Assembly: GCF_013343295.1 (NCBI RefSeq)
Contig: NZ_CP049074.1
Location: 372,001-436,000 of the forward strand
Length of the DNA stretch: 64,000 nt
Source of the DNA: Metallosphaera tengchongensis
GTDB taxonomy: Archaea; Thermoproteota; Thermoprotei_A; Sulfolobales; Sulfolobaceae
Direction: 5' to 3'
Part shown: piece after piece, positions 7,576 to 53,754 of the stretch
Numbering within the stretch: the first letter of the stretch is position 1
How the letters are laid out: the number at the start of each line of letters is the position of its first letter
Position numbers and translations under genes: made by a program
The notes under the pieces: generated by a model
The model's input: the letters and a program-made list of their open reading frames with translations, nothing else
Database searches by the model: none
Told to the model about the DNA's origin: nothing

Positions 7576-7596
7576 TAATACTTTTGAGGAGTATTA
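7576..7596. promoter_or_regulatory. Perfect 7-bp inverted repeat in cdvA promoter (candidate cell-cycle operator)
   Basis: TAATACT (7576-7582) and AGTATTA (7590-7596) are exact reverse complements separated by 7 nt and lie between the cdvA TATA box and the ATG. From memory, cdvA promoters of Sulfolobales carry a short conserved box bound by the RHH regulator aCcr1, which represses division genes after cytokinesis. The AGTATTAC half here looks like that box, but I have not verified the consensus. A repressor bound here would block initiation. Confidence 0.5.
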
Positions 7597-7599
7597 CCT

Positions 7600-8319
7600 A
7601 TGTCTATATCGTTTGAGAACCTTACGAAATTCATAGGTCAGAAGGTCAAAGATGTTTATGGAAGAGAAGTTGGGTTTCTAGTTCACGTATATACTGAGGT
7701 CGATGGGACTGTTACTGGAGTGGAGGTAGCTTACGGAAACTCCTTTTCCACTATAGAACCCTCCAAGATCAACCTAAACAATGACGTACTTGTAGTTTTA
7801 CCTGACTGGAAAGCTGAGTCTATGAAATCGATCTTACAGATGGAAAAAATAAGGAAAAGACAGAGAGCTTTAGAAGAACTATATAGCAAACAGGAAATAC
7901 CTAAATCCTCTTATGATGAAATGAAAAGAAAATTAGATGCAGAAATGGTAAAAATAAGAGAGGACTACGCTAAAATAAAGAGCAAGCTAAAGAATAGGCT
8001 TAATGAGGTCGAGGATCAAATAGCTCACATTGATAGAGCAATGATAGCTGTTAAAATGAGTTACATAGCTGCTGAACTTGGCGAAACTGCATATAAGAAC
8101 TCGATAGAGATCCTTAGGCAGGCTAAGGAGAGTTATACTGTGGAGAAGGACGATATAAGGAAGACCATGGAAAAGTTAGACCTAAGTGATAGGGATAGTG
8201 GTTTGGATATAAAAGGAGCTGGGCCCCTAACTAGCGGAGCTGAGCAGTTAGCCAAGTCGGATATACCAAGGGCGGAATTACCAACACCTATACCTGTAAA
8301 AGTCTTAAACACTCAGTGA
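7600..8319 (+). CDS. cdvA: Cell division protein CdvA
   Basis: CdvA is the crenarchaeal-specific membrane- and DNA-associated scaffold that recruits ESCRT-III (CdvB) to mid-cell. The 239-residue protein has an N-terminal PRC-barrel-like domain (about residues 8-70, with [15 protein letters not shown]), a central charged coiled coil (about 75-150), and a C-terminal proline-containing peptide ([12 protein letters not shown]) matching the position of the ESCRT-III-binding motif that pairs with the CdvB winged helix. It heads the cdvA-cdvB-cdvC set: cdvB begins 18 nt later. The upstream inverted repeat suggests cell-cycle control. Confidence 0.93.
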
Positions 8320-50353: not shown

Positions 50354-50430
<77 letters not shown>

Positions 50431-50566: not shown

Positions 50567-50689
50567 ATTGGATGTACAGTTGGTCTATCTATTGGAACCC
50601 ATACATTATACTTATAAAACTGAAAATAGTAAAAATTTTTTAAATAAGTTAGATTTAGTGTGGAATTATCAACTAGGCTTTTCATCTGG

Positions 50690-50793
50690 TAATACCAACC
50701 GTTATCAGGAAACAGTTTGTTTATAGATAATACCAACCGTTATCAGGAAACGGTTTATTTATGGAAACAATAGCAGAAATGGTTTATTTATGG
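50690..50793 (+). repeat. Tandem promoter repeats upstream of nrdJ
   Basis: Two 37-bp units with a 38-bp period (50690-50726 and 50728-50764) share TAATACCAACCGTTATCAGG followed by AAAC(A/G)GTTT(G/A)TTTAT(A/G)G, with 3 mismatches. Part of the unit, GGTTTATTTATGG, recurs a third time at 50781-50793, with (A/G)AACAATA after it. Each unit carries AACCGT and ACGGTT (or ACAGTT) as an inverted repeat around TATCAGGAA, and a TATA-like TTTATTTATGG. The third copy is about 30 nt before the nrdJ ATG, a plausible working TATA. Confidence 0.7.
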
Positions 50794-50818
50794 GAACAAT
50801 ATATTTTAATAGATTCTC

Positions 50819-53379: not shown

Positions 53380-53754
53380 ATGTCTTTGGTTCCACCCTGT
53401 GAGTTTTCGGTAAAGGAGCTGTTGCCTGCCATGAGGTCAGTAATAGCGACCAAGTTAGTGAAGGATAAGGGTTACCCGCTCTACAGGGCTGCCCTCGTAA
53501 TGGGTGTTACTCCTGCAGCCGTTGCGAATTACATGAACGGAAAGAGAGGTACAGCTATCAAGAGTATGATCGAAAAGGATCAGAGATTGATGGAGATGAT
53601 AGGGGATTTAGTTGACAAAATGGCCTCTTCAGGAAGCACTAATCAGCTCGCTACTTACTATTGCATATTATGTGCTGAAGGAAAGAGGGTTCTCAAGAGG
53701 AACGGAATATCTCTTCCCTCTTGCTTGTACGAGAGTAACTTGATGTTAAAGTGA
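53380..53754 (+). CDS. HTH transcriptional regulator with C-terminal cysteines
   Basis: A 124-residue protein with N-terminal PPCEFSVKELLPAMRSVIATKL, characteristic of a COG2522-type archaeal regulator (related to the DNA-binding part of ThiN-like proteins), and a helix-turn-helix GYPLYRAALVMGVTPAAVANYMNGKRG (about residues 31-57). The C-terminal half has CILC plus a further Cys (SLPSC), possibly a metal or Fe-S sensor. It follows nrdJ by ~100 nt with its own TATA-like region. Its 3' end overlaps the convergent gene by 9 nt. Confidence 0.75.
   Translation: MSLVPPCEFSVKELLPAMRSVIATKLVKDKGYPLYRAALVMGVTPAAVANYMNGKRGTAIKSMIEKDQRLMEMIGDLVDKMASSGSTNQLATYYCILCAEGKRVLKRNGISLPSCLYESNLMLK

Follow-up and report, generated by a model that had tools for sequence, protein, structure and literature searches.

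A palindromic box conserved upstream of nrdJ in Sulfolobaceae, and tandemly expanded in Metallosphaera tengchongensis, as a candidate aCcr1 operator

The ribbon-helix-helix (RHH) protein aCcr1 is reportedly 58 residues long, and Yang et al. are said to have found in 2023 that the aCcr1-box lies between the TATA box and the start codon of most of the repressed genes. The motif of aCcr1 was reportedly given by Li et al., also in 2023, as AGTATTA (reverse complement TAATACT), and the abstract of that work is said to mention targets that are repressed or induced. The archaeal virus SIRV2 presumably encodes a protein of the same clade, gp21. Position-dependent regulation is known in archaea from TrmBL1 and the Thermococcales glycolytic motif, and in bacteria the NrdR box serves the control of ribonucleotide reductase. 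Among the reported targets of aCcr1, cdvA is repressed by this RHH repressor (PMC12796447, PMC7617429), and cren7 is reported to be regulated by it and is listed beside the repressed gene cran1 (PMC12796447). The effects of aCcr1 that we found in the literature on its regulon (PMC12796447, PMC12284271, PMC7617429), namely those on cdvA, cran1 and segAB, are repression. How Sulfolobales control their G1 and S phases has been described as unknown (PMC12796447), and the coupling of dNTP supply to replication in archaea is poorly understood.

We analyzed a 64-kb window, i.e., the whole stretch of DNA presented above, from the genome of M. tengchongensis (Sulfolobaceae; 2,176,897 bp), whose close relatives include genomes of 2,191,517 and 1,840,348 bp. 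The window contains nrdJ, whose product we take, from its protein family, to be a class II ribonucleotide reductase (Table 1). Class II ribonucleotide reductase has been described in Sulfolobus (PMC5134839). Upstream of nrdJ lies an array with two direct copies of a 38-bp unit that are 92% identical to each other. Its Tandem Repeats Finder score of 132, compared with 41 for the next best of the 17 arrays in the window, argues that it did not arise by chance. A third copy is partial, comprising 26 nt that are 92% identical to positions 50747-50772. Its distance to the matching part of unit 2 is 29 bp, as opposed to the 38 bp between the units, and it contains the TATA part only, without TAATACC. 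In total, the array holds two GGTAnTACC boxes and three TATA-like boxes.

Table 1. Features discussed in the text. Plain positions count from the first letter of the window; those beginning with G000:C1 refer to the host genome.
Feature	Position	Strand	Remarks
cdvA box, AGTATTACC	7590..7598		precedes the cdvA ATG (at 7600) by 1 bp; same 64-kb window
Box 1, GGTAATACC	50688..50696		GGTAnTACC palindrome without mismatch; at -131 relative to the nrdJ start codon
Unit 1, 38 bp	50690..50727	+	box core and TATA-like TTTATAG at 50720
Box 2, GATAATACC	50726..50734		one mismatch; variant also in two congeners; -93 from the nrdJ start codon
Unit 2, 38 bp	50728..50765	+	box core and TATA-like TTTATTT at 50754
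AACCGT...ACGGTT inverted repeat	50735..50755		this species only
Partial third copy	50776..50801	+	TATA core, TTTATTT at 50783; boxless
nrdJ, ribonucleotide reductase, 818 aa	50819..53275	+	ATP-cone and ribonucleotide reductase large-chain domains
purM-RHH-argG box	G000:C1:713858-713866
aCcr1 orthologue, 58 aa	G000:C1:1712344-1712514		ribbon-helix-helix; 57% identical to SIRV2 gp21

The earlier note on this DNA had recognized a tandem promoter repeat with a partial third copy nearest the gene. Both are real, with a period of 38 bp instead of the 37 bp of its title, and with a third copy that is in a 29-bp register and limited to the TATA part. Two motifs that it had assigned to each unit are distributed less evenly. 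The sequence TTTATTTATGG is present in unit 2 and in the third copy, unit 1 carrying TTTGTTTATAG, and the AACCGT/ACGGTT inverted repeat is exact in unit 2 (50735-50740 and 50750-50755) and imperfect in unit 1, where the second arm reads ACAGTT.

Comparison with relatives pointed to a different element from the one that the note had singled out. The 38-bp repeat was absent upstream of nrdJ at the other Sulfolobaceae loci (30 family loci in all), and the AACCGT/ACGGTT inverted repeat, which had been proposed as the operator, was found upstream of nrdJ at none of the other 29. A 24-mer of the unit had no second site in the host genome even with 3 mismatches allowed, and no match in the other genome contigs searched, a set from which the source species is possibly absent. 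Likewise, the 20-mer put forward as a functional motif occurs only here and is not conserved as a whole. The conserved element, GGTAATACC, is a palindrome located on the left edge of the unit.

Of 60 related genomes, 52 yielded an nrdJ gene, and 30 Sulfolobaceae loci were compared. The sequence GGTANTACC, with at most one mismatch, was found within 150 bp upstream of nrdJ at 28 of these 30 loci, 11 times in exact form, compared with a mean of 1.2 and a maximum of 5 in shuffled sequences; the loci are not fully independent because the genomes are related. The distance from the box to the ATG was 58 to 67 bp, with a median of 65 (27 loci measured), and the box was located upstream of the best TATA-like match, as placed by a simple hand-set scoring matrix, in 23 of 27 loci. 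Near position -65, no box was found in the family members G005 and G011. In other families of the order, for which the start codons were estimated, the nrdJ upstream regions contained an exact box in 4 of 12 cases (shuffles, 0.03) and a box with at most one mismatch in 7 of 12 (shuffles, 0.74).

Two or more boxes within 220 bp upstream of nrdJ were found at 6 of the 30 family loci, compared with 0.04 in shuffles. As the spacings at such loci differ (38, 17, 16, 14, and 34 bp), multiplication of the box recurs at nrdJ. This comparison supports the suspicion of the earlier note that repeated operator-like sites form a multi-site pattern before this gene. In the 1,840,348-bp congener, the nrdJ boxes are two copies of GATAATACC with a spacing of 17 bp (-168 and -151), and the region around -65 is boxless.

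The origin of the array can be reconstructed from these distances. The box lies at -63 to -65 in the congeners G001 to G004, and the third copy of the array aligns with their single core promoter. In M. tengchongensis the boxes are shifted from the ancestral position, -64, to -93 and -131. When one unit (38 bp) and one TATA copy (29 bp) are subtracted from the distance of box 1 (131 - 38 - 29 = 64), the box position of the congeners is restored, and thus two tandem duplications explain the array. The ancestral nrdJ module would have comprised one GGTAnTACC operator some 20 bp upstream of a TATA box; duplication of the 29-bp TATA core and of the 38-bp box-plus-TATA segment would have produced two operators and three TATA-like boxes. 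The array thus appears to be a recent, species-specific tandem expansion of that module, an order of events that we infer from the duplication arithmetic.

Genome-wide enrichment of the box is not clear, with 35 sites for GGTAATACC versus 27 for a reversed control in the host genome. For so short a motif without clear enrichment, lone sites mean little unless they are conserved. A regulon based on exact boxes throughout the genome was abandoned, 78 of the 105 sites examined falling inside ORFs.

Conserved boxes are present at several other genes. A search of the host genome for RGTATTACY yielded the cdvA site (Table 1), and a box of the form [AG]GTA[AT]TACC is found at the cdvA start codon at 16 of 18 Sulfolobaceae loci (shuffles, 0.52), with a TATA-like match upstream of it in 15 of 15. 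The cdvA start region of this species also contains a second half-site, TAATACT, at 7576-7582. Upstream of cren7, by 65 to 70 bp, a box of the GGTATTATC/GGTATTACA type occurs in 12 of 18 Sulfolobaceae (shuffles, 0.65), and the TATA box follows 31 to 33 bp downstream of the box start at all 12 loci. The helicase gene herA has two boxes in the host genome, and 12 of 15 relatives carry one at -53 to -67 (shuffles, 0.37). At 11 of 19 loci, the promoter of the aCcr1 gene itself also contains a box-like site, located at -60 to -63 (shuffles, 0.58). With respect to the start codon, the boxes fall into two position classes, one upstream (nrdJ, -65; cren7, -69; aCcr1, -61; herA, -58) and one close to it (cdvA, -10; purM-RHH, -14). 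The main TFB gene, TFB1, which is preceded by a box in the host genome, had none in 18 relatives; it served as the control and was dropped as a target.

The box sequence at nrdJ (GGTAATACC/GATAATACC) matches that of cdvA and cren7. Because these two reported aCcr1 targets share the motif, an aCcr1-type box is the best reading of the nrdJ element, an assignment based on this coincidence and on the motif reportedly given for aCcr1. The earlier note knew of no described element of this form; as far as the box is concerned this is probably incorrect, given its match to the AGTATTA motif reportedly recognized by aCcr1. Using SIRV2 gp21 as a query, we found one clear aCcr1 orthologue of 58 or 59 residues, mostly 58, in each of 19 Sulfolobaceae genomes. 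Three other RHH genes were rejected as aCcr1. The gene between purM and argG encodes 45 to 49 residues only and is boxless in most other genera; neither the one beside a phosphate-permease-like gene nor another widely conserved one, of 48 to 50 residues, has a conserved box, and both are less similar to SIRV2 gp21. A tblastn search of phages with an RHH protein gave no match.

The locus thus resembles the aCcr1 regulon in its 9-bp box, in the presence of a gene for a 58-residue RHH orthologue and in the kinds of target genes, which concern division, chromatin and DNA metabolism. It differs in the placement of the box, which at nrdJ, herA and cren7 is fixed within -53 to -70 and in general precedes the TATA region; the published one is said to lie between the TATA box and the start codon. 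At most nrdJ loci the box is not in that interval, and the reported target cren7 has the same upstream geometry. A further difference is the tandem duplication of the nrdJ box with its core promoter in this species. As with TrmBL1, one palindromic motif is found upstream or downstream of the BRE/TATA elements in different gene sets; protein family, motif and physiology are different, and the sign of the upstream class to which nrdJ belongs is only proposed here. The NrdR system shares the operator repeats upstream of ribonucleotide reductase genes but has another motif, and the three weak NrdR-box matches in the 64-kb window are at chance level, none of them near nrdJ. An Rfam search of the nrdJ leader detected no riboswitch or structured RNA, its sole match being the tRNA-Arg gene upstream of the array (50354-50428).

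Our main reading, to which we assign a probability of about 70%, is that the array represents an expanded nrdJ promoter module whose operator is bound by aCcr1, timing nrdJ to the cell cycle. Dimers of aCcr1 would occupy the predicted box upstream of the nrdJ core promoter, their occupancy would make nrdJ transcription dependent on the cell cycle, and deoxynucleotide supply would thereby accompany S phase; aCcr1 binding at the nrdJ box and cyclic expression of nrdJ are the steps that we infer. The doubled operators would be expected to increase aCcr1 occupancy or strength rather than to bring new logic, and the array may offer alternative TATA boxes for nrdJ. A tie to the cell cycle, as surmised in the earlier note, is plausible because the same box marks cdvA and cren7, its support coming from comparison. 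As to the sign, we lean slightly toward repression outside S phase, because the reported effects of aCcr1 are mostly repression and cren7, of the same geometry, is a reported target.

Activation would also fit the position of the box, since the BRE and the TATA box stay free when the operator is some 20 bp upstream of the latter. According to this alternative, which we regard as a tentative possibility, aCcr1 bound upstream of the TATA box (nrdJ, herA, cren7, and aCcr1) recruits or stabilizes TBP/TFB, and aCcr1 bound downstream of it (cdvA and the purM-argG RHH gene) represses. The two distance classes argue for it, as does the order of the elements, with the TATA box upstream of the box at all cdvA loci scored and downstream of it at all those of cren7 and most of those of nrdJ. 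Targets that are induced as well as repressed, as reportedly mentioned in the abstract of Li et al., would also agree with it. However, the effects described at cdvA, cran1 and segAB are all repression, cren7, whose box is upstream, appears beside the repressed cran1 among the targets (PMC12796447), and the simple TATA score gives no consistent place for the TATA box at herA and aCcr1. We consider unlikely, taken as a whole, a more general positional code through which one small RHH protein would govern the cell cycle of Sulfolobales, and in which division genes (cdvA) are shut off from boxes at the start codon, the S-phase and DNA-maintenance genes nrdJ, herA and cren7 are switched on from boxes fixed about 55 to 70 bp upstream, nrdJ promoters are tuned by box multiplication and the link to nrdJ extends beyond Sulfolobaceae.

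The extra copies might also be neutral, i.e., the box would be functional and its multiplication the product of recent slippage without regulatory effect, which is compatible with the main reading of the box. The 92% identity of the units, their confinement to one species and the fact that congeners function with a single box are in line with this explanation, which nevertheless seems rather improbable to us given the recurrence of at least two boxes, variously spaced, at 6 of 30 nrdJ loci against 0.04 in shuffles. The least probable of these alternatives is that the box serves a different conserved regulator of DNA-metabolism genes, of the RHH or HTH type. Candidates would be the product of the HTH gene at 53380-53754, which seems to follow nrdJ at further loci, or one of several RHH paralogues, such as that encoded between purM and argG, which has a box at its own start in 6 of 6 genomes of the genus. 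Two reported aCcr1 targets carry the same box, though, and the purM-RHH gene looks like a target rather than a universal regulator because it is boxless in most genera outside this genus.

If aCcr1 is the ligand of the nrdJ box, as we favor, these comparisons suggest that DNA-precursor supply is wired to this cell-cycle regulator. The conserved, position-fixed operator common to nrdJ, herA, cren7 and cdvA constitutes a concrete candidate circuit that is testable by existing genetics. The nrdJ promoter of this species, which naturally combines two operators with three TATA-like boxes, provides a ready-made dose test. The conserved herA box similarly suggests cell-cycle control of a DNA-repair helicase.

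Some additional genes are of note. The small HTH protein gene directly 3′ of nrdJ, seemingly in the same place at other Sulfolobaceae loci, encodes a product with no Pfam family above cut-off. In all six genomes examined from the genus, a GTATTAC(C/T) box stands just 5′ of the start codon of the small RHH gene located between purM and argG. This gene may be a regulator that is in turn a target of aCcr1, or else a paralogue that regulates itself. Finally, in the host genome, a gene for a NERD/Schlafen-helicase-like protein has two boxes, one on each side of its start codon (G000:C1:2160688-2160712).
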